DNA of 64,000 nucleotides, taken from assembly GCA_017405305.1 (NCBI GenBank), contig JAFRAT010000011.1, positions 1 to 64,000 on the forward strand, in the 5' to 3' direction. The notes beneath the pieces are model-generated. The model was given only the letters and a program-made list of their open reading frames with translations. It made no database searches and was not told the origin of the DNA. Both the position numbers and the translations under genes were made by a program. The DNA comes from Aeriscardovia sp. GTDB taxonomy: Bacteria; Actinomycetota; Actinomycetes; Actinomycetales; Bifidobacteriaceae. Numbering within the stretch: position 1 is the stretch's first letter; every line of letters begins with the position of its first letter. Shown here piece after piece: positions 1,731 through 34,475 of the stretch.

Positions 1731-3129
1731 GGTTTTCCTTCGGTTTTCTTTCGAGTTTTCCGCCGAGTCCTTTGTCAAGCCGGCGCAGGATGTAGCTCTG
1801 GTACGGGAGCGCTAGCAGCAGCGCGAGGATATCCGCCAGAGGCTGGGCCACCATCACCCCGGTGAAGCCGAGGAAATGCGGCAGGATCAGCAGGATGGGG
1901 ATAAGAAAGATGCCGCGCCTGCCGGACCCCACGAAACTGGAGATGAACGTGTACCCCAGCGTCTGCGAGAGCATGTTGAAGGTGACGATTACGGTAGTGA
2001 AGGGCAGCGTCAGCGACTGCCAGCGCAGCGCGGGCACGCCGTAGGCCACGACAGCGGGGTTGCTCTGGAACGCGCGGACGATAGGCGCAGCCCAGATGGA
2101 CTGCGCGATGGCAATGGCGCCCAGCACTACGAACGACGCGCGGATGACCAGCCAGTAGCCCTTAGTAACCCTCTTGTAGTTCTTCGCCCCGTAGTTGTAG
2201 CCGCACACGGGCTGGTAGCCTTGGCCGAAGCCGCCGCGGATAGAATTCGACACCGTCACGATGCGGTTGACGATGGTCATGGCCGCAATGGCCGCGTCGC
2301 CGTACGGGTTGGCGGCCAGATCGAGGACGTCCATGCCCAGTGCGCGCATCCAGTTGCGCAGCAGACTCGGCAGGCCGCCGGCGATGATCTGGTGGAACAC
2401 CTCGCTGTCGAGGCGGTAGCGGGACAGGCGGATAGGCACCACGCTGTGGCGGCGGTACAGGCCCAGCAGCAGGCAGAAAGAGATGACCTGGCATACGGCG
2501 GTCGCGGATCCCGCGCCGACCATACCCCAATGCAGCGCGAAGATGAACACTGGTTCCAGGCCGATATTGCTGATGGCGCCCGAGGCCAGGCCGATCATGG
2601 ACTCCTTCGCTAGTCCCTGGAAGCGCAGCAGCGCGTTAAGCACGTACGTGGCGCAGTTGAGCGGCGCGACGATGAGCAGCGGCAGCATATAGGCGATGGC
2701 CAGTGGCGCGATGGTCCTTGTGGAACCGAGGACGACAGCCAGCGGGTCGCGCAGGCAGATGGCTACAGCGGCGATGATAGCGGCGACGAACAGTGTGGTG
2801 AAAAAGCCATTAGAGGCGAGCCGTTCCGCGAAGTCCTGGTTCTTCTTGCCCAGCGCGACGGACATCCGGTTGGCCGAACCCATGCCGAACATCAGACCGA
2901 TGGACTTGAGGATGACAGTCAGGGGCATGACCACGCCTGCGGCGGCCACAGCGGCCGTGCCGACGCAACCCACGTAGAAGGTATCGGTGAGGTTGTAGGT
3001 AACGGTGACGATGTTGGCCACGGTGGACGGCACGGCGAGGCGGACGATGGTGCGCCCCAGCGGGGCCTGGGTCATCTCGTAGAACCGTGCGTCGGCGTCG
3101 TCCGCCCGCGATGCCGTTTTCCGTGCCAT
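1723..3129 (-). CDS. MATE family exporter (second copy)
   Basis: A second MATE transporter of 468 residues, promoter-proximal to the first copy. It shares NLTDTFYVG near the N-terminus, a FQGLAKESMIG loop in the middle and GYQPVCGYNYGAK in the second half. The reading frame is open far upstream to 3447, but that extension is Arg-rich and not transporter-like. The ATG at 3129 has AAGGAGGA directly upstream and gives the family-typical N-terminus that includes FYEMTQAPLG. Its stop overlaps the start of the downstream MATE gene. DNA upstream (3286-4623) holds decayed relatives of the same family, so this locus has been an expanding and contracting MATE array. Confidence 0.9.
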   Translation of the reverse strand: MARKTASRADDADARFYEMTQAPLGRTIVRLAVPSTVANIVTVTYNLTDTFYVGCVGTAAVAAAGVVMPLTVILKSIGLMFGMGSANRMSVALGKKNQDFAERLASNGFFTTLFVAAIIAAVAICLRDPLAVVLGSTRTIAPLAIAYMLPLLIVAPLNCATYVLNALLRFQGLAKESMIGLASGAISNIGLEPVFIFALHWGMVGAGSATAVCQVISFCLLLGLYRRHSVVPIRLSRYRLDSEVFHQIIAGGLPSLLRNWMRALGMDVLDLAANPYGDAAIAAMTIVNRIVTVSNSIRGGFGQGYQPVCGYNYGAKNYKRVTKGYWLVIRASFVVLGAIAIAQSIWAAPIVRAFQSNPAVVAYGVPALRWQSLTLPFTTVIVTFNMLSQTLGYTFISSFVGSGRRGIFLIPILLILPHFLGFTGVMVAQPLADILALLLALPYQSYILRRLDKGLGGKLERKPKENHG

Positions 3130-3285
3130 CGGCCGTCCTCCTTGCTCTCTGCGCGACGCGCTCGACCGCCACTTCGCGGTTTCCGTTCGTCCGCCTCTGC
3201 GCCACCGCGTTCCGGCGCTCACTGGCTGCATTGCCGGTTCCGCCTGTTCGCGCGCCGCGCGAATCCTCCAAACTCTACACCGCCG

Positions 3286-4110
3286 TCCCGTCGTCGCCGT
3301 CCGCTTTCCTGCGTCGTGGCGGTTTCTTTCCCGCCTCCGTGCGCTTTGTCCCGCGCACGATATGTCCCCATAGCGACGGATCCAGCAGAGTGGCGCACAC
3401 GTCGGAGATGAGTCGTGCCAGCGTGATTCCGAGGAGGCCAAACACATGCGGCGGCATCAGCGCCGGCATGAGGGAAGATGTCCTGCTGTCCCAGGTCAAG
3501 CCGAGATGATGGCCGTGGCGTCTGCCATGGCCTCTGTCACGGAAGTGTAGAGGGAGGGGCATGGCGGGAGACTGAAGTTCCGTCATATGTACGGCCGGCG
3601 GGCTGTACGTCACTATCCGCGGTTCGCGCAGGGAGAGGCAGATGAGCCGCAGGACGAAGATTTCCCGCAGTACGCACGCAGGCACGAGGAGCAGGGCGTG
3701 GCGTTTACCCCGGGCCGGTCCTTGGACCATGTGCCGGTAGTTGCTTCTTGCCCTGTGGCTAACCTCGCGCGCAGGCTGGCAGCCCTGCGGACCCCACCTT
3801 ATGCTGACGTTCACGATGCGGCCGGGCGATTGTCATGGCCGCGATGACCGCGAAGCCAGAGGGATTGAAGCCCGTCAGGCACGTCGGTGGTGCCGGACAG
3901 CATGAAATCGCGGGAGAAGCTCGGCACGCCTGTGCTGAACAGGTCGTGGGGGATCTCCTCGTCCGGCCGGAAGGCGTCCCAGCGGAATTGGACCACCGAG
4001 TTCCAGGCGAACAGCGCGACGTTAAGGCCCAGGCCTGGCAGATGCCCGGTGCCATCAAGGAGATAATGGGGTTCGTCGATCAGACCTTGGAAGAGCAAGG
4101 TACGGGTTGA
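3286..4110 (-). pseudogene. Decayed MATE exporter, middle-to-C-terminal part
   Basis: Reading on the minus strand, successive frames recreate MATE segments in the correct order. FQGLIDEPHYLLDGTGHLPG (near 4095) corresponds to FQGLAKESMIGLASGAISN of the intact neighbour. STGVPSFSRDFM (near 3930) matches AGGLPSLLRNWM, and AVIAAMTI (near 3850) matches AAIAAMTIVNR. WGPQGCQPA (near 3780) stands for FGQGYQPVCG. The C-terminal part (3300-3520) reads SLMPALMPPHVFGLLGITLA, like PILLILPHFLGFTGVMVAQ. Frame changes and lost codons separate these pieces, so no functional product is possible. It has its own copy of the YQPV region, distinct from the remnant at 4262-4623. Confidence 0.75.
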
Positions 4111-4261
4111 TGACGGCGCCCGCGCAGGCATATCTCGGCCCTTCCGACCAGCTCCACGACGAAGTGGGCCGATGAACCCGGACCGAGATGCAGCGCTCGG
4201 CCATTCGCCTGTCCTTCCTGCCTATGGCAACAGATAGTTGTTTGGCAGCTCCCCATGCCGA

Positions 4262-4623
4262 GGAATACGCTACAGACGCCTATCGCCATCATGAGGCGCG
4301 CGAGACGCGGCGCGAAGATCTCCTGCGGCGCGGAAACGCTTAGCAGCAGGATCGCGGAGGTCCTCGCGACCATCCAGCAACTCTTGCGCATCCGGTGGTA
4401 CAGGCGCGCTCCGTATTTGTAAGCCGCATACGGGTTGATAGCTCTGGCCAATACCTAGGCTGCACGCTGCTGGTGTGGGGATGCGGCCCAATCCGTCATG
4501 CCGAGCAGTCCGGCGCAAAAGGTGTCGGTGAGGTTGCCGACGGCGGCGGGGACCGTCATCCTCGCGATGACCTCCCTGAAGGCCCGCGGCCATTTCACCG
4601 AATTCGTTGTCCACGGTCGCCAT
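4262..4623 (-). pseudogene. Second decayed MATE remnant (N-terminus joined to the YQPV region)
   Basis: From an ATG at 4623 the frame begins like a MATE N-terminus and then shifts. The shifted frame contains VIARMTVPAAVGNLTDTF, matching IVRLAVPSTVANIVTVTYNLTDTF with a small deletion. About 50 bases later the sequence jumps to GIGQSYQPVCG and WMVARTSAILLLSV, which correspond to residues about 300 further on in an intact MATE. The internal ~0.8 kb has therefore been deleted. Because the neighbouring remnant (3286-4110) carries another YQPV region, at least two separate MATE copies have decayed here. The division between the two remnants is my inference. Confidence 0.7.
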
Positions 4624-4783
4624 GCCATCGCTTCTTTCTCAAAGGCCATGACTGCAGTTCGCCGCGACGGCGTTGGAAAACGGTGGTGTGGTGTGAAAGT
4701 CGTTCCGCGGGCCGGCTTCGTTTCTGGCGGAAGGAGGTAGCATCGAGAAGTCATCGCAGAGACGAGCGCAAAGGAAGGCATCC

Positions 4784-5419
4784 ATGAGCACACCGGGACC
4801 GGACAAGTCCGAACGCCAGGCGCGCAAGGAATACGTGCACGATCGCACGCGGCTCGTCATCAAAGCCTGTCTCATCGGCCTCGTCGTGGCCTTGGTCCTA
4901 GGCTTGCTGGGCCTGTTCGACGTGTGGGGCCGCCTGTTCCCAGACGTCGACGACACCGCCGCCGGCAATTTCGGCGTCTCCGCTCCGTGCGCGCCCGCCA
5001 ATGCCGTGGCCATTGACCCCAGCAACATCACGGTCGCGGTCCTCAACGGCACAGAAAAGTCCGGCCTGGCCGACGCCGTCAGCGAAGCGCTCGACTACCG
5101 TGGCTTCAACATCAAGGGCATCGGCGACGCGGCGCATGAGTACAAGCACACCACTATCGTTGCGGGCGTCAATGGCCTAGCGGCAGCCTATTCGCTGCGC
5201 GCCCAGTTCACCGGCGCCGTCCTCGAGATGAGCACCTCCACCGACAAGGTCGTCACCGTCATCATCGGCGACGACTTCTACGACCTCAAGCCCGCAGACT
5301 CCGTTACCATCAAGGATGGCCAGAAGCTGGTGTCTTTCAAGGGCTGCGTTGCGCCAAACGATATTAAGAACCCGCTGAAGGCCGGCACTATCGGCACTCT
5401 GGAGAACAACGTGGTGTAA
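4784..5419 (+). CDS. LytR_C domain membrane protein
   Basis: A 211-residue protein with a short basic cytoplasmic N-terminus, one membrane helix (about residues 25-47, ACLIGLVVALVLGLLGLF) and an extracellular domain. The domain carries the LytR/CpsA C-terminal signature ITVAVLNGTEKSGLADAVSEAL near residues 86-107. LytR_C proteins occur alone in actinobacteria and are linked to envelope assembly; the catalytic LCP domain is absent. The start is supported by AAGGAAGG seven bases upstream. It is divergent from the decayed MATE region and precedes the urease island. Exact function is unknown. Confidence 0.85.
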   Translation: MSTPGPDKSERQARKEYVHDRTRLVIKACLIGLVVALVLGLLGLFDVWGRLFPDVDDTAAGNFGVSAPCAPANAVAIDPSNITVAVLNGTEKSGLADAVSEALDYRGFNIKGIGDAAHEYKHTTIVAGVNGLAAAYSLRAQFTGAVLEMSTSTDKVVTVIIGDDFYDLKPADSVTIKDGQKLVSFKGCVAPNDIKNPLKAGTIGTLENNVV

Positions 5420-5484
5420 GGCTGCCGGCCGTCGCGACAAGGTCGTCGGCATCCTGTCTCTAGCAGCCGACGTCATCTAAGGCA

Positions 5485-5887
5485 ATGCCTGAGTCCAGAT
5501 CGACGGCATGGAAGGCAGACGGCCGGGTTTCAACGCCGGCGGTTCACTTTCGCGCTTTCACTATTCCTCCTTTGCCGTCCCGCCGCCGCGAGTGTCCGCG
5601 TTCGGTCGCAGACCCGCGCAACGCCACCGTCGTCGGCGCGGCCAGCGGCATCCCGTTGACGGTCGTGGGCGTATGCCTGCTCGCTATCATTAGCGGCGCC
5701 GGCATGTACGTCGGGCGACCCGCTCTTTATCGGCTTGTCGCTGCGCTATTCGTTCCAGACGTTATACCTCGAGCGCGATGAGGAACGTCGATGCCTTTCT
5801 CTAGCCTTCGGCGGAGCGCTCGCCGCCGGCCTCCTCTACCAGGGCGTGAGTTGGCGAGGCAATCTGAGCGTGCGCTCGTTGCGGTAA
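5485..5887 (+). pseudogene. Possible decayed small membrane protein gene
   Basis: The 620 bases between the LytR_C gene and ureI contain no intact gene. One frame reads a hydrophobic segment, IPLTVVGVCLLAIISGAGMYV. About one base later the text continues sensibly in a different frame (GDPLFIGLSLRYSFQTLYL, then FGGALAAGLLYQGVSWRGN) up to a TAA at 5885-5887. A single frameshift near 5708 would join them into a small two-helix membrane protein. I do not recognise the family; an ordinary untranslated spacer is the alternative. Confidence 0.35.
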
Positions 5888-5913
5888 GGCGATTAGAGTA
5901 AGTTATTCAAATC

Positions 5914-5938
5914 CTCAGGTTTCTTTTTCCCTGAGAAA
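5914..5938. promoter_or_regulatory. Inverted repeat upstream of the urea channel gene
   Basis: In an AT-rich pocket, CTCAGG (5914-5919) is mirrored by CCTGAG (5930-5935), and overlapping TTTCT (5920-5924) is mirrored by AGAAA (5934-5938). It lies about 50 bases upstream of the putative -35 of ureI. It could be an operator for a nitrogen- or pH-responsive regulator, or a weak terminator hairpin for the decayed ORF before it. The assignment is tentative. Confidence 0.3.
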
Positions 5939-5984
5939 TGCTGTAGACTAGTCGAGTCTTTAGAAAGTTATGTGATTTTAAGGT

Positions 5985-6013
5985 TTGACGGTGTCCATCG
6001 CCAGCCCTTTTGA
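5985..6013 (+). promoter_or_regulatory. Candidate promoter of the urea channel gene
   Basis: TTGACG (5985-5990) matches five of six -35 consensus bases. After a 17-base spacer, TTTGAT (6008-6013) matches four of six -10 bases. Transcription would start near 6020, just ahead of the AAAAGGAGG ribosome binding site at 6025-6033. The TTG inside this -35 is an in-frame possible start codon, which I reject in favour of the ATG at 6042. Confidence 0.35.
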
Positions 6014-6041
6014 TCGCTTGCTACAAAAGGAGGCTCAGCGC

Positions 6042-6572
6042 ATGGGCGGCGTTATTCTGCTTTACGTCGGCATGGTTCTGATGAGCAACGGCCTGTATGG
6101 TCTGCAGAAGATCAGCGACAAGTCCAACGTCATCATGAACCTGTTCACCGGCGGCCTGTCCCTGATTCTGAATATCATCTGCCTGGGTTACGGCATCTGC
6201 ACCGGCCAGAAGGCGACCTTCTTCTACGGAAGCGCCACCGGCCTGCTCTTCGCCTTCACCTACCTTATGGTCGCACTCAACAAGATCTTCGATCTCGACC
6301 AGCGCCTCTACGGCTGGTACAGCCTGTTCGTCGCCGTCAACTCCATCCCGGCCGGCATCCTCTGCTTCTGCAACTTCGGTGGCAACTACTGGTACGGCCT
6401 CATCTGGTGGCTCTGGGGTATCCTCTGGCTGACCGGCTTCATCGAGTGCACGCTCGGCAAGTCCCTCGGCAAGTTCACCGGCTGGCTTGGTGTCCTCGAA
6501 GGCATCTTCACCGCGTGGATTCCGGGCTTCCTCATGCTGTGCGGCGTATGGCCGGCACAGGGCTGGTTCTGA
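6042..6572 (+). CDS. ureI: AmiS/UreI family urea (amide) channel
   Basis: An inner-membrane channel of 176 residues with six hydrophobic helices, expected to let urea enter the cytoplasm for the urease encoded downstream. Family features include the N-terminal MGGVILLYVGMVLMSNGLYG, the aromatic-rich IWWLWGILWLTGFIE segment in helix 5 with its acidic residue, and a C-terminal amphipathic end at GWF. The start ATG has AAAAGGAGG eight bases upstream; the longer frame from 5985 would begin inside the promoter. A strong hairpin follows, so it may be a monocistronic unit. In Helicobacter UreI is proton-gated; whether this one is gated cannot be seen. AmiS-type short-chain amide transport is the alternative, but the urease context favours urea. 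Confidence 0.88.
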   Translation: MGGVILLYVGMVLMSNGLYGLQKISDKSNVIMNLFTGGLSLILNIICLGYGICTGQKATFFYGSATGLLFAFTYLMVALNKIFDLDQRLYGWYSLFVAVNSIPAGILCFCNFGGNYWYGLIWWLWGILWLTGFIECTLGKSLGKFTGWLGVLEGIFTAWIPGFLMLCGVWPAQGWF

Positions 6573-6605
6573 TCCATGCCTCGTCAGTGAAACTGACTGG
6601 ATTTG

Positions 6606-6636
6606 AAACGCCGTGGCGCTCAGCGCCATGGCGTTT
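6606..6636 (+). terminator. Strong hairpin between ureI and amt
   Basis: AAACGCC (6606-6612) pairs with GGCGTTT (6630-6636) and the stem continues inward with one G-T pair to a TCA loop, about 15 base pairs in all. There is no long T-run, only cgttacgtt. It probably ends or attenuates ureI transcripts before amt. Confidence 0.65.
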
Positions 6637-6698
6637 CGTTACGTTATAAAAGAACAATATCCTCTGAAAATCGCTTGACTTCAAAGGAGTAGGAGATT

Positions 6699-7970
6699 TT
6701 GGAACCCATCGTCAATTCGGCCACGGACCTCAGCAACGTGACCTACATGTTCTTGTGCACCATTCTGGTGTTCTTCATGACGCCGGGCCTGGCGTTTTTC
6801 TACGGCGGCCTTGTACGCAAGAAGAATTCCCTGGCCATCATGTGGAAGGTCTTTTCCGCGATCGGCGTTGTAGGCCTGCTGTGGATCTTCGGCGGCTTCA
6901 GCCTCGTATTCGGCAAGGACTGCGGCGGCTTCATCGGTGATCCGGCACAGTTCTTCGCGTTCCGTAACGTGCTCTTCGACATCGACAAGCAGTACGGCGC
7001 CACGATCCCGCTGCTCATGTTCTTCATGTACCAGCTCATGTTCGCCATCATCACCCTGCCGCTGATGACCGGCGCCACTGCCGGCCGCCTCAACTTCGGC
7101 GGCTGGATCGGCTTCCTCATCTGCTGGATGATCCTGGTCTACTTCCCGGTCGCCCACTGGATCTGGGGCGGCGGCTGGCTCGCCAAGCTCGGTTTCGTCG
7201 ACTTCGCCGGTGGTACCGTCATCCACATCACGTCCGCGTTCTCCGGTCTCATGGCTATCATCTACTTCGGTCGCCGTCCTGACTACGACGAATGCCAAGC
7301 TCCGCACGCGTCCAACCTCGGCCTCGTCGCCATCGGCTCCGCGATCCTCATGTTCGGCTGGTTCGGCTTCAACGCCGGCGGCACCGGCTCTTCCAACAAC
7401 ACTGCCGCCCTTGCCTTCGCCAACACAGGCACCGCCATGATCTGCGCCATGGTCCTGTGGTGCATCATCGACTACTTCGTCTCCGGCCGCCACTGGTCCT
7501 TCGAACAGCTGATGACCGGCCCAATCGCCGGCGCGGCCGCCGTCACCCCAGCCTCCGGCTACATCACTCCGGTGGGCGCCATCATCATCGGCTTCGCCGC
7601 CGCCATCGTGTGCTACTTCTGCGTGTACCTGTCTAACAAGGTCTGGCATCTCGACGATACTCTGGGCGTCTGGGGTGTCCATGGCATGGGCGGCTTCATC
7701 GGCACGCTCTTCATCGGCATCCTTGCCGATCCGCGTGTCAACGGCATCGCCGCCGGCGGCCGCCAGTTCCTCATTCAGTTGCTCGGCGCGGTTGTCGTCG
7801 GCGCGTACTCCATGGTCGTCACCTGGATCATCCTGGTCATTCTCGACCATATCTTCAACATCCGCACCACCAAGCAGCAGATGGAAGAGGGTCTCGATCC
7901 GGATCTCCTCAAGGAGAACTACTTCGGCACCGACACCGACGCCGCTGAAGCCGCCGCCGTCGCGCAGTGA
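6699..7970 (+). CDS. amt: Amt family ammonium transporter
   Basis: An 11-helix ammonium channel of 423 residues. The pore twin histidines are visible: His176 in GGTVIHITSAFSG and His328 in GVWGVHGMGGFIG. The N-terminal helix has TPGLAFFYGGLVRKKN, and the C-terminal tail ends in an Ala-rich acidic stretch. The start is TTG at 6699, preceded by AAAGGAG; no ATG lies at the correct position. No glnK/PII gene accompanies it, so the usual PII gating partner is elsewhere or missing. Placed between the urea channel and ureA, it could recapture ammonium lost after ureolysis or release it. It is separated from ureABC by a terminator, so it is probably regulated independently. Confidence 0.93.
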   Translation: MEPIVNSATDLSNVTYMFLCTILVFFMTPGLAFFYGGLVRKKNSLAIMWKVFSAIGVVGLLWIFGGFSLVFGKDCGGFIGDPAQFFAFRNVLFDIDKQYGATIPLLMFFMYQLMFAIITLPLMTGATAGRLNFGGWIGFLICWMILVYFPVAHWIWGGGWLAKLGFVDFAGGTVIHITSAFSGLMAIIYFGRRPDYDECQAPHASNLGLVAIGSAILMFGWFGFNAGGTGSSNNTAALAFANTGTAMICAMVLWCIIDYFVSGRHWSFEQLMTGPIAGAAAVTPASGYITPVGAIIIGFAAAIVCYFCVYLSNKVWHLDDTLGVWGVHGMGGFIGTLFIGILADPRVNGIAAGGRQFLIQLLGAVVVGAYSMVVTWIILVILDHIFNIRTTKQQMEEGLDPDLLKENYFGTDTDAAEAAAVAQ

Positions 7971-8058
7971 CATTCCGGCAGCGATGTTCAGGAGATTCCG
8001 TGCAGGGTCCGGCCGTTCCCGCGTCCGGCTCTAACGAAATCCTTTTCCAGTGTTAAAA

Positions 8059-8110
8059 AGCCGCCGTTTCATCGGGTTCCCATATGCTTCCGATGAAACG
8101 GCGGCTCTCT
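8059..8110 (+). terminator. Rho-independent terminator after amt
   Basis: A perfect 17-base-pair stem (8059-8075 with 8090-8106) with a 14-base loop, preceded by an A-run and followed by ctctttg. It separates amt from ureA. Confidence 0.88.
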
Positions 8111-8162
8111 TTGTAACAGCGCATGTGCCGCGCGAAAGCTCCGGTTATATTCCTGGCATGTT

Positions 8163-8194
8163 TGTTGATGCTTCATATCAACATCTCAACATCT
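8163..8194. promoter_or_regulatory. Palindrome plus tandem repeat at the ureABC promoter
   Basis: TGTTGAT (8163-8169) and ATCAACA (8177-8183) form a perfect 7-7-7 inverted repeat. Its right arm runs into two head-to-tail copies of CAACATCT (8179-8186 and 8187-8194). The block abuts the -35 region of the ureA promoter, a usual position for an operator or activator site. The regulator is unknown. The sequence does not look like the NikR consensus I know. Confidence 0.55.
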
Positions 8195-8223
8195 GACTTT
8201 CTGGACCTACTGATCTGTATAAT
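8193..8223 (+). promoter_or_regulatory. Candidate ureABC promoter
   Basis: A perfect TATAAT lies at 8218-8223. Upstream, CTGACT at 8193-8198 matches four of six -35 bases with a 19-base spacer. The weak, widely spaced -35 next to the repeats suggests activator dependence. Transcription would start about 15 bases before the ureA start codon. Confidence 0.5.
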
Positions 8224-8244
8224 GTTTATTGAAAGGAGGAAATC

Positions 8245-8547
8245 ATGCATTTAACTACTCGTGAAGAAGAGAAAATGTTGGTTTCCGTTGCTGCCATGGT
8301 CGCGCAGCAGCGCAAGGATCGCGGTCTCAAGATGAACCATCCTGAGGCAGTCGCGCTCATCACCAATGCCGTCATCGAGGCCGCTCGTGATGGCAAGGAC
8401 TGGAACGAGGCCGTTGCTATCGGCAACAGCACCCTCACCCGTGACGACGTCATGGAAGGCGTTCCGGAAATGATCCCGATGATCCAGGTTGAGGCTACGT
8501 TCACCGATGGAACGAAGCTCGTCACCCTGCATAATCCGATTCAGTGA
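8245..8547 (+). CDS. ureA: Urease subunit gamma
   Basis: The smallest structural subunit of nickel urease (urea + H2O to ammonia and carbamate), 100 residues, exactly the family length. Recognisable segments are [27 protein letters not shown] and the C-terminal [26 protein letters not shown] precedes the ATG. It is first in the ureABC operon behind a TATAAT promoter. Its stop codon overlaps a GTG that opens the ureB frame, so coupled translation is possible. Confidence 0.97.
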
Positions 8548-8558
8548 TTGGGGGAAAC

Positions 8559-8948
8559 ATGGTTCCTGGAGAAATTCATTTCGCTGATGGCAATATCCTC
8601 TGCGACGCCAATTACCCGGCGATTTCCGTGAAGGTCAAGAACACCGGCGACCGTGCCGTGCAGGTCGGCTCCTACTTCCACTTCTACGAGGCCAATTCCG
8701 CGCTCCAGTTCGACCGCGACCTCGCGTGGGGTAAGCACCTTGACATCCCATCCGGCACCGCTGTCCGCTTCGAGCCTGGTGACGAGAAGACCGTCCAGCT
8801 CGCTGACTACGGCGGAAAACGCCGCGTCTTCGGCTTCAACAATAAGGCCGACTGCTATCTCGACGGTTTCGCAGCTCCTGAAACCGATTCGGAAACCTAC
8901 ACCGCGACCCGCAAGGCCAACCTCGCCGCCGCGCACAAAAACAAGTGA
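8559..8948 (+). CDS. ureB: Urease subunit beta
   Basis: A 129-residue structural subunit that packs with UreA and UreC into the (abc)3 trimer. The family core [26 protein letters not shown] and FGFNNK motif are present, followed by a basic C-terminal extension ([13 protein letters not shown]-like). The chosen ATG yields MVPGEIHF, matching the usual UreB N-terminus, with a GGGGGAA site upstream. An in-frame GTG at 8544 that overlaps the ureA stop is the alternative start. Confidence 0.96.
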
Positions 8949-8990
8949 TTTCCGGAGTATTTCCGAGAAGTACGAAGAAGGATAAATCCT

Positions 8991-10712
8991 ATGAGCTTTG
9001 AAATGGATCGTAAGACCTATGCTCAGATGTTTGGTCCGACCACCGGCGATTCCATCCGCCTGGGTGACACCAACCTCTACGCCAAGGTCGAGAAGGATAT
9101 GACAGTCTACGGTCAGGAAGCCATCTTCGGCGGCGGCAAGGTCCTCCGCGACGGCATGGGCTGCTCCGCGACCGCTATGCGCAGCAAGGATCCGCGGGTC
9201 GCTGACGAGGTCATCACCAACGCCCTCATCATCGACTACACCGGCATCTACAAAGCTGATATCGGCATCCGCGACGGCAAGATCTTCGCCATCGGCAAGG
9301 CCGGCAACCCGGACAACATGGACAACGTCAACATCGTCGTTGGCGCGAGCACCGAGGCGATGAACGCTGACGGCAAGATTGTCACCGCCGGCGGCATCGA
9401 CACCCACGTCCACTACATCACGCCGGAACTCGACGTCATGGCCCTGGACAACGGCATCACCACCCTCTTCGGCGGCGGCACCGGCAACTCCAACGGCACC
9501 CTCTCCGCGACCACCACCCCGGGCAAGTACAACATCCACGAGATGCTGCGCTCCTTCGAGGGCATCCCGGTCAACTTCGGCATCTACGCCAAGGCTGGCG
9601 GCGTGATCCCGGACACCACCGGCGAGCAAATCGAGGCCGGCGCTGCTGGCATCAAGATCCACGAGGACTGGGGCGCGACCGCTTCCAACATCGACCACTC
9701 CCTCGAGGCCGCTGACCAGTACGATGTCCAGATCGCTGTCCACACCGACTCCCTCAACGAAGGCGGCTACGTGGACAACACGCTCAACGCCATCAAGGGC
9801 CGCACCATCCACGCCTTCCACACCGAGGGCGCCGGCGGCGGCCACGCTCCGGACATCATGGTCGTCGCTGGTCAGAAGAACTTCCTGACTTCTTCCACCA
9901 ACCCGACCGACCCGTACTGCAAGAACACCGTCGCCGAGCTCTTCGACATGACCATGGTGTGCCACTCCCTGAACCCGGAAGTCCCGGAGGACGTGTCCTT
10001 CGCCGAGTCCCGCGTTCGCAAGCAGACCATTGCCGCCGAGGACATCCTGCAGGATATGGGCGCCATCTCCATGATGACCTCCGACGCCATGGCCATGGGC
10101 CGCGTCGGCGAGACCATCATGCGCACCTGGCAGATGGCCGACAAGATGAAGCTCCAGCGCGGTCCGCTCAAGGGCGACTCCGAGTTCGATGACAACAACC
10201 GTATCAAGCGTTACGTCGCTAAGTACACCATCAACCCGGCTATCACCGTCGGCATCTCCGACTACATCGGTTCCATCGAGGTCGGCAAGTACGCCGATCT
10301 GGTCATCTGGGATCCGGCGTTCTTCGGCGCCAAGCCGGACACCGTCATCGTCAACGGCTTCGTCGTGTACGCGAACATGGGCGACGCAGGCTCCTCCCTG
10401 CCGACCCCGGAGCCGATGAAGATGTCCCCGCTCTTCGGCATGAAGGGCAAGGCTCTCGGCATGAACTTCAAGACCTTCGTCTCCACTTATGCCTATGAGC
10501 ACGGCATCAAGGAGGAGCTGGGCCTCGACCGCATCGTGCTGCCGGTGCACAACACCCGCGACCTGATGAAGTCTGACATGAAGTTCAACGACTACGCTCC
10601 GTCCACCATCGCCATCGATCCGCAGAACTTCACCGTTACCATCGACGGCGAAACGATCGATTGCGATCCGGTCGATGAAATCGCTCTGACCCAGCGTTAT
10701 TATCTGTACTGA
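8991..10712 (+). CDS. ureC: Urease catalytic subunit alpha
   Basis: The catalytic subunit of urease, 573 residues, an amidohydrolase-fold TIM barrel with a dinuclear nickel centre in the cytoplasm. All active-site residues can be placed: His139 and His141 (GGIDTHVHY), the carbamylated Lys222 ([11 protein letters not shown]), His251 (AVHTDSLNE), His277 ([11 protein letters not shown]), flap Cys324 and catalytic His325 (MVCHSL), and Asp365 ([10 protein letters not shown]). Each is offset by +5 from the Klebsiella numbering, so no insertion or deletion disturbs the core. The second flap histidine of MVCHHL is serine here. The start has GAAGGA upstream and lies 42 bases after ureB. A catalytically competent enzyme is expected. 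Confidence 0.98.
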
Positions 10713-32321: not shown

Positions 32322-32392
32322 GCGGACGTAGTTCATCGGTAGAACGGGAGCTTCCCAAGCTCCAGAGGCGGGTTCGATTCCCGTCGTCCGCT
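32322..32392 (+). tRNA. tRNA-Gly (anticodon CCC)
   Basis: A complete cloverleaf: acceptor GCGGACG with CGTCCGC, D-arm GTTC-ATCGGTA-GAAC, anticodon stem GGAGC/GCTCC with loop TTCCCAA (anticodon CCC), and a T-arm with GGTTCGATTCC. The discriminator base is T, as expected for glycine tRNAs. CCA is not encoded. It is 71 bases long. A pyrimidine-rich tract follows (ttctttcttcttctg), consistent with termination. Confidence 0.96.
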
Positions 32393-32447
32393 CTTCTTTC
32401 TTCTTCTGTTTGCTCGCGAACCGGTCGATTCCGATGCTGGCCGCTGT

Positions 32448-32458
32448 CCCCCCCCCCC
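32448..32458 (+). repeat. Homopolymeric C tract (11 C) in the leader of the RAMA protein gene
   Basis: Eleven consecutive C bases end 15 bases before the ATG at 32474. It is by far the longest mononucleotide run in the window. It lies between tRNA-Gly and the candidate nuclease gene, where slippage would change promoter or leader spacing. No good Shine-Dalgarno site is seen between tract and start. Confidence 0.8.
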
Positions 32459-32473
32459 AGTTAGAGTAGCCGC

Positions 32474-33631
32474 ATGAGCGAACGAGACGTAGCTGTTGAT
32501 GTGTCTGTCATCAGCGATGCTATTGATAAGATCGGGAATAGGCTTCGTACGCAAAGGGAAGCCGCCGACAACGAAGAAACGACGAAAACGGCTTTCATCC
32601 TTCCGTTCCTGCGTGATGTGCTTGGTTATAACGTCGAGGATCCGTTTGAGGTGAAGCCGGAGTACACGGCTGATATCGGTGGCAGCAAGGGCGAGAAGGT
32701 TGACTACGCTATTTGCAATGACGATTCGGAGCATACTCCGCGCATCCTGATCGAATGCAAAAAACTGGGCGCTGATTTAACGCAGGAAAACACCAAACAG
32801 CTGTGGCGGTATTTCGGCACGTTGCCCGATGCTCATTTCGGTATTTTGACCAACGGCCAGCTCTGGCAGTTCTATACCGATATGGACAACGACAACATGA
32901 TGGACAACGAGCCGTATGCCGTTCTCAACGTTCTCAGTCCCGACTCCGACGCCATCGTTTTACTGCAGGACATAACGAAAAAGGGATTCAATTCCGGTAA
33001 AGCGCGCGAGGATGCCGAACGCTACCGCAAGATGAAGCGGATTCGTGAGCGCATCGACAAAGAATTCTTGGAACCGTCTCGTGATTTCGTGCTGCTTCTT
33101 ACCAAGGAGCTGGTGAAAGGCAAGTTCACACACAAGGTCGAGGCCAAATACAGGCTGCTCGTCGAGGATGCGTTGAAGGAATACATCAACCAGCGCATCA
33201 AAAACCGGTTGGAGAAGGCGGCAATGGATGAGGAAGGCTCCGATTCCCAGCAGCGTGGCGCAGGGGAGAGCGACGATGCCGCGGCGGTGGGAACAGGAAC
33301 CGCGGAACCGGGGGAGGCGGAACAAGAACAGCCGAAGAGGAAGCGTCGCGATTCATCGGTAAAGATACAGGATCTGGTGAATGCTGGTTTGCTTCATGAC
33401 GGCGATAAATTGATTTGCGCTACCGTGCGCGGCCAGTACCAGGACGTGGTTGCCACGATTCGCGGCGATGGAGGGATCGAAATCGAGGGACAGCCGTACT
33501 ACTCGCCTAGCAAGGCGGAGGCGATCGTTAGGGGCCACTCCCGCGATGGTTGGACATTCTGGAGGTTGCCCGATGGCAGGACGCTGGCGGAGGTGCGCGC
33601 TGCCATGGACCAGGATGCGGTCCATGGTTGA
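32474..33631 (+). CDS. PD-(D/E)XK-like (HsdR N-terminal) nuclease domain protein with C-terminal RAMA domain
   Basis: A 385-residue protein. Residues about 10-170 resemble the N-terminal nuclease domain of type I restriction HsdR subunits: an acidic Asp78 in KVDYAI, then ILIECKKLG with Glu94 and Lys96 (E-x-K), and QLWRYF with Gln109 in the QxxxY-like position. A helical region (175-250) and an acidic linker follow. Residues about 295-378 match the RAMA (restriction-system adenine-methylase-associated) pattern: IQDLVNAGLLHDGDKL, YYSPSKAEAIVRG, DGWTFWRL and LAEVR. No methylase, specificity or helicase gene accompanies it. It may be a standalone DNA-modification-sensing nuclease or a defence accessory; no activity is proven. 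Codon use is less GC-biased than in its neighbours, suggesting acquisition beside the tRNA. Confidence 0.75.
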   Translation: MSERDVAVDVSVISDAIDKIGNRLRTQREAADNEETTKTAFILPFLRDVLGYNVEDPFEVKPEYTADIGGSKGEKVDYAICNDDSEHTPRILIECKKLGADLTQENTKQLWRYFGTLPDAHFGILTNGQLWQFYTDMDNDNMMDNEPYAVLNVLSPDSDAIVLLQDITKKGFNSGKAREDAERYRKMKRIRERIDKEFLEPSRDFVLLLTKELVKGKFTHKVEAKYRLLVEDALKEYINQRIKNRLEKAAMDEEGSDSQQRGAGESDDAAAVGTGTAEPGEAEQEQPKRKRRDSSVKIQDLVNAGLLHDGDKLICATVRGQYQDVVATIRGDGGIEIEGQPYYSPSKAEAIVRGHSRDGWTFWRLPDGRTLAEVRAAMDQDAVHG

Positions 33632-33836
33632 ACACGGCGGATCCCGTCCGTCGACCGAGGACCTTCGGCCATAGGCATCCGGGAACGCGTTGTCGCGGCC
33701 GCCTCCGGAAAACCGGCCGTAGAGGTCTCGGCTTCTTTTCCCGCAGGTCCGCTCCGATTGCTTTCGCCGCGTGTCGTCGGATAAGCTGGGATAGCCGCCG
33801 CCTGCGCGGTTCCGGCGGCTCAACGAGGAGAATCCC

Positions 33837-34475
33837 ATGGAAAACCAGACTGCGGAAAACCAAGCTGTGGAAAAATCCGTTCCGGCCGTGAAACTGTCCT
33901 ACGAGGACGCTTGGAAGCTGCTGACCGAATACACGAAGGGCGCTGCGTTGCGCGTCCACGCGCGTCAGGTGCAGTCCTGCATGGCGTGGTTTGGCGAACA
34001 TTTCGGCGGCGATCCGGAGGTATGGGGCGTAGCCGGCATGTTGCACGACCTCGACTACGAGATGTACCCGGATCAGCATTGCGCGATGTCGAAGCGGATC
34101 ATGGAGGAGCGCGGTGTCGACCCGATGTACGTCCATGCCATGCTTTGCCACGAGCCAAAACTGACGGGCGAAGAGCCGAGTACCCTGCTCGAGAAAACGC
34201 TCTACACCGTCGACGAGCTCAGCGGCCTCATCAACGCCGCCTGCCTGATGTACCCGTCGAAGTCGATCTTCGACGCGAACGTCAGGTCCATCAAGAAGAA
34301 GTTCAAAAATAAAAAGTTCGCCGCGAAAATCGACCGCGGGCACATTTCCGACGGCTGCGAGCGCATGGGCTGGGACTTGTCCGACGTCATTGACGGCTGC
34401 ATCCGGGGTATGCAGGCCAACGCGGAGCAGTGCGGCCTCGTCGGCGATCACAGGGAAGGCGATCGGCAAGAGTGA
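33837..34475 (+). CDS. HD-domain phosphohydrolase-like protein
   Basis: A 212-residue cytoplasmic protein with an HD-superfamily metal site: His41 (RVHARQV), then His70-Asp71 (GMLHDLDYE) and a later His-rich helix, MYVHAMLCHEPKL. It resembles predicted hydrolases of the HDIG type found across Firmicutes and actinobacteria, probably acting on a nucleotide or small phosphate ester; the substrate is unknown. AGGAG is well placed before the ATG. The C-terminus has Lys-rich KKKFKNKKFAAK. Confidence 0.85.
   Translation: MENQTAENQAVEKSVPAVKLSYEDAWKLLTEYTKGAALRVHARQVQSCMAWFGEHFGGDPEVWGVAGMLHDLDYEMYPDQHCAMSKRIMEERGVDPMYVHAMLCHEPKLTGEEPSTLLEKTLYTVDELSGLINAACLMYPSKSIFDANVRSIKKKFKNKKFAAKIDRGHISDGCERMGWDLSDVIDGCIRGMQANAEQCGLVGDHREGDRQE

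Follow-up and report, generated by a model that had tools for sequence, protein, structure and literature searches.

The locus and its flanking genes

The analysed window covers bases 1-64000 of a 65-kb contig (C14) from the 1.1-Mb genome of a gut bacterium of the Bifidobacteriaceae, which belongs to the genus Aeriscardovia and not to Bifidobacterium itself. On its forward strand an open reading frame (32474-33631) encodes a protein of 385 residues, which is predicted to be a standalone nuclease combining a PD-(D/E)XK domain with a C-terminal RAMA domain. Its ATG lies 80 bases past a forward-strand tRNA-Gly (CCC; 32322-32393), and is preceded at a distance of 15 bases by a homopolymer of 11 C (32448-32458, forward strand). 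Behind it follows an HD-domain gene (33837-34475, forward strand), which is a flanking gene and not part of the system. The remaining neighbours, namely a SpoU methylase, a class I tRNA synthetase, TGT, an HtrA-like protease, a reductase and FemAB, are all housekeeping genes; there is no defence island in the flanks, and no integrase adjoins the nuclease gene. The N6_Mtase and N6_N4_Mtase profiles found no match on the 65-kb contig. Together with the housekeeping neighbourhood, this supports the earlier statement that the gene stands alone, with no linked hsdM or hsdS.

At the corresponding position in the sister species (G001; JAFNPO010000038.1), behind the same tRNA-Gly, an orthologue with 79% identity is encoded. 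In a third Aeriscardovia (G002) and in two genomes of the genus g13 (G182 and G183) about 40-200 bases separate the tRNA-Gly from the HD gene behind it, so that in these nuclease-free relatives the HD gene stands directly behind the tRNA. From this empty site we conclude that the nuclease gene is an insertion, in keeping with the original prediction that the tRNA-Gly marks an insertion spot. The GC3 of the gene is 0.66 against 0.81-0.82 in its neighbours, which agrees with the less GC-rich codon use noted before. In the spacer behind the nuclease we also observed a weak resemblance to the 3' end of the tRNA-Gly (33721-33755, forward strand; p ~0.01-0.04), which is suggestive of an attachment-site scar; in the sister genome a different spot outscores the 33721 site (reached by 2 of 629 control windows). 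The HD-gene homologue of the third Aeriscardovia (G002:C36, L038, 1946-2521) carries three in-frame stops (TGA, TAG and TAA), and is either a pseudogene or a product of error in the metagenome-assembled genome (MAG).

Domain architecture of the nuclease

Pfam searches recovered the RAMA domain (PF18755) at residues 281-378 (33314-33607, forward strand) with an e-value of 8.8e-18 and a score of 64.7 bits, against a curated cut-off of 35.2; the orthologue of the sister species scores 72.5 bits with the same profile. The N-terminal region is matched at residues ~43-140 by HSDR_N (PF04313; E 1.7e-11) and HSDR_N_2 (E 2.2e-10), and PHROG 4225, annotated as "endonuclease", spans residues 14-266 with an e-value of 4.4e-68. 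No model in PADLOC covers the whole protein, and Pfam gave no match to a SWI2/SNF2 motor or to a C-terminal subunit-binding domain. In the AlphaFold model residues 11-250 are confident, with a pLDDT of ~88-98 per block, and the N-terminal part of the model resembles the nuclease domains of DrdV (Z 12.4), HsdR (3h1t; Z 10.6) and BsaXI (Z 9.7). For the RAMA part the match is to MPND (7ydt; Z 5.6), over residues 310-382, which lie in a region of low pLDDT. Both the union of an HsdR-N-like nuclease with a RAMA domain and the PD-(D/E)XK fold itself, as proposed from the bare sequence, are confirmed, the RAMA domain by its profile match and the nuclease domain by profile and fold matches.

Taken with the homologue alignment, these results delineate four segments on the forward strand. 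The HsdR/DrdV-like PD-(D/E)XK domain, defined by Pfam, alignment and fold match, occupies residues ~10-175 (32501-32998), and is followed by a helical middle region at residues ~174-258 (32993-33247), which is common to PHROG 4225 and evolves rapidly in residues 193-224. An acidic, low-confidence linker at residues ~259-290 (33248-33343) then leads into the RAMA domain and forms the junction of the C-terminal domain exchange described below. The active site consists of D77 (32702-32704), E94 (32753-32755), K96 (32759-32761; the E-x-K signature) and Q109 (32798-32800), and these residues are invariant in 51 of 51 aligned homologues. The alignment upholds the glutamate, lysine and glutamine named in the original prediction, and places the aspartate at D77 rather than at its Asp78.

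The nuclease family and its exchanged C-terminal domain

The N-terminal 250-270 residues are part of a widespread family of single-gene nucleases (PHROG 4225, presumably the same as COG4748), for which we found no functional study in the literature searched; NCBI names its members type I restriction endonuclease or HsdR N-terminal domain-containing protein. Relatives of this part were detected in 13 Bifidobacteriaceae genomes outside Aeriscardovia, at 39-45% identity, as well as in 18 phage records, 46 plasmid records and 437 IMG/VR loci. The relatives in Corynebacterium phage Juicebox and Streptococcus phage IPP25 belong to the lysogeny module, with the repressor on one side and the integrase on the other. 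When the viral relatives were grouped into 29 clusters at 70% identity, no neighbour recurred in more than four clusters, the commonest being integrase, ImmA-type protease and repressor (named by eye), and this lack of a recurrent neighbour indicates that the family travels as single-gene cargo.

Family members usually end in a different domain of ~95 residues (TTxEELEG...RDTxSYFGxLLDDNNRKP), which was present in all 63 distinct viral relatives read from the best 80 viral relatives of the nuclease part; none of these 63 had a RAMA-type end, and a RAMA-only scan of IMG/VR likewise brought up no RAMA-bearing viral relative. In a typical family member this domain is modelled as five strands between two helices, with only weak matches in the PDB. 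Among the loci read, only the two Aeriscardovia species have RAMA in place of the usual tail. RAMA as such is matched in 49 of 395 genomes of the class Actinomycetes, and beyond the two Aeriscardovia proteins none of the RAMA loci read there showed a fusion to a PHROG 4225-type nuclease. Given that the rest of the family carries another C-terminal domain, the C-terminus would appear to be an exchangeable targeting module.

Adenine methylases of the host and the possible role of RAMA

Three predicted adenine methylases are encoded on other contigs of the same genome. They belong to a type I system with hsdM, hsdS and hsdR on contig C18, to a type III mod and res pair on contig C10 (L064, G000:C10:26000-40000, 5303-10272), with a 10-G tract at 5421 of that locus near the start of mod, and to an MmeI-like type IIL restriction-methylation gene on contig C11 (L065, G000:C11:188000-196000, ~2609-5450, minus strand). 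The last is split into two frames of 317 and 651 residues, broken at an 11-G tract near 4610, and is likely a phase-variable restriction gene. In the sister genome, too, there is a tract close to a methylase match (C40:568). Between hsdS and hsdR of the type I locus (L062, G000:C18:10000-27000) we noted an ORF of 290 residues (5620-6492, minus strand), which has no Pfam match and by eye resembles GIY-YIG proteins (YYLVKLEFG...IYAGQT).

A role for RAMA as a reader of N6-methyladenine has been proposed, and prokaryotic fusions join the domain to Mrr-like and GIY-YIG nucleases (PMC11037411). On this precedent the protein could be a type IV, modification-dependent nuclease that cuts incoming DNA once its RAMA domain has recognised N6-methyladenine or some other adenine modification there; the single-gene organisation suits such enzymes, and the contig's lack of an N6-type methylase match is in line with it. 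However, the two structures of RAMA with DNA that have been described, those of CcrM and MPND, display contacts to the backbone only, and the binding of MPND was unaffected by 6mA in one study, although another reported binding to 6mA DNA (PMC9963953; PMC11037411). Moreover, a general m6A-dependent nuclease would be toxic to a host with type I, type III and MmeI-like adenine methylases of its own, and a reader would have to be context-specific to spare it. These points weaken the case for the modification sensing proposed at the outset, and we regard a type IV enzyme as possible but unlikely.

The same methylases raise the alternative of a methylation-inhibited nuclease, or of a trans partner of a distant restriction-modification system, which would cut DNA devoid of the host's marks while the type I, type III or MmeI-like methylase protects the chromosome. 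The HsdR/DrdV kind of nuclease domain would fit such a partner, but the protein has neither a helicase motor nor an HsdS-binding part, and its relatives are single genes of phages and plasmids, next to which no methylase is annotated in the regions read. We therefore consider this alternative improbable.

Divergence between the two species

The nuclease genes of the two species are separated by 105.7 nonsynonymous and 22.3 synonymous changes, and a maximum-likelihood codon model (own script) gave a gene-wide omega of 1.86, with p=0.011 against a value of 1. The flanking HD, reductase and FemAB genes have values of 0.09, 0.15 and 0.06, respectively. Residues 67-245 reach an omega of 2.84 (p=0.0035), a segment picked after viewing sliding values, so that reliance should be placed on the gene-wide test. 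These estimates derive from a single pair, the two orthologues known, and the sister MAG is 7% contaminated. In that assembly the end of contig C103 (L061) and contig C42 (L039) share an overlap of 578 bases that is 95.7% identical, which indicates that it mixes two strains. The reductase, nuclease and HD genes have a dS of 0.05-0.19, and FemAB one of 0.56; the low values suggest that the former stretch may have been exchanged recently between the two Aeriscardovia species.

A gene-wide omega near or above 1, a possible attachment-site scar and the lack of an adjoining integrase could also point to a decaying remnant of a mobile element that evolves without constraint. Against this, both copies retain their full frame and active site after ~128 changes, with three small in-frame length differences, where about four nonsense changes would be expected had these changes been neutral. 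Furthermore, omega is above 1 and not merely equal to it, and the linker is conserved between the species while the nuclease and helical parts change. Decay is thus quite improbable, and the intact frame combined with an omega above 1 rather fits a functional, diversifying gene of genetic conflict. A host nuclease of DNA repair or regulation, for which its chromosomal place amid housekeeping genes might speak, is hardly credible for a gene that is missing from the third Aeriscardovia and from most Bifidobacteriaceae genomes searched, and whose relatives are typical cargo of temperate phages.

The poly-C leader

The 11-C tract before the nuclease is the longest homopolymer of the window and its only G/C run of at least 7; the sister species has 6 C at this place. 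Across the genome there are 21 G/C tracts of at least 9, five of them of at least 11, as compared to four in the sister genome and one in the third Aeriscardovia, and most of the other tracts inspected were intergenic or in doubtful frames. The 21 tracts are possible genome-wide contingency loci, or else assembly error. The original prediction spoke of a slippable poly-C leader, and the tract itself is indeed there; its action as a translational switch was rejected, because with 8 to 14 C there is always either a stop in the frame of the ATG before it is reached or a leader that ends out of frame, which excludes switching of a translated leader peptide at these lengths. The tract could affect transcription or the initiation of translation; a promoter scan found no match.

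A predicted mobile nuclease with an exchanged C-terminal domain

The protein is real, intact, mobile and fast-evolving, and it belongs to a known family of single-gene nucleases, from whose other members it differs in its RAMA tail. Its best explanation, to which we assign a probability of about 0.6, is a single-gene restriction-like nuclease that was gained by horizontal transfer, had its DNA-targeting domain exchanged and is diversifying in conflict with phages or plasmids. By this account the HsdR/DrdV-type domain would hydrolyse DNA through D77, E94, K96 and Q109, the helical middle region would link the nuclease to RAMA and perhaps take part in oligomerisation, and the C-terminal RAMA would hold or select double-stranded DNA. 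The gene would have entered between the tRNA-Gly and the HD gene in the common ancestor of both Aeriscardovia species or have passed from one to the other; positive selection would since have diversified it, which is what a conflict with phages or plasmids should bring about. Its mobile, defence-like character, foreseen in the original prediction, is supported by the empty site in relatives, the homologues in lysogeny modules and the omega above 1; from these, and from the computed fold, conserved active site and domain exchange, we infer nuclease activity, DNA targeting through RAMA and a role in defence.

A bolder version, which we find rather unlikely, holds that a single gene makes up a whole restriction system and that its DNA-reading tail is exchangeable: the common phage-borne nuclease body would have acquired RAMA as a reader, which recognises on invading DNA a specific mark or adenine modification, and would be under strong diversifying selection, possibly with phase-variable expression through the 11-C leader. 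The case is of wider use, as it concerns a large phage and plasmid family of single-gene nucleases whose annotation goes no further than "endonuclease" or "type I restriction endonuclease". The exchange for RAMA in two species, the outgroup with an empty site and the accelerated evolution make up a compact test case for the function of the family's C-terminal domain and for the proposal in the literature that bacterial RAMA reads DNA modification.

Comparison with known systems

The nuclease domain shares the PD-(D/E)XK fold with the type II enzymes DrdV, BsaXI and BpuSI and with the N-terminal nuclease of HsdR (Z ~8 to 12.4), but the Aeriscardovia protein lacks their methylase, target-recognition or helicase domains. 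The type I HsdR of the same genome has a motor and a subunit-binding domain, both of which are absent from the 385-residue protein. In having RAMA fused to a nuclease or defence protein it resembles the RAMA-Mrr-NTPase, GIY-YIG-RAMA and BREX-related DUF3780-RAMA proteins, though it differs from these in nuclease class and domain order, and has no NTPase. Its RAMA domain is akin by sequence to that at the C-terminus of CcrM and, in a part of the model with low pLDDT, by structure to that of MPND; these two are not nucleases, and their RAMA contacts DNA without base specificity. With PHROG 4225 itself it shares the active site, size, single-gene organisation and middle region up to about residue 266, while the ~95-residue C-terminal domain of that family is replaced by RAMA in the Aeriscardovia protein.
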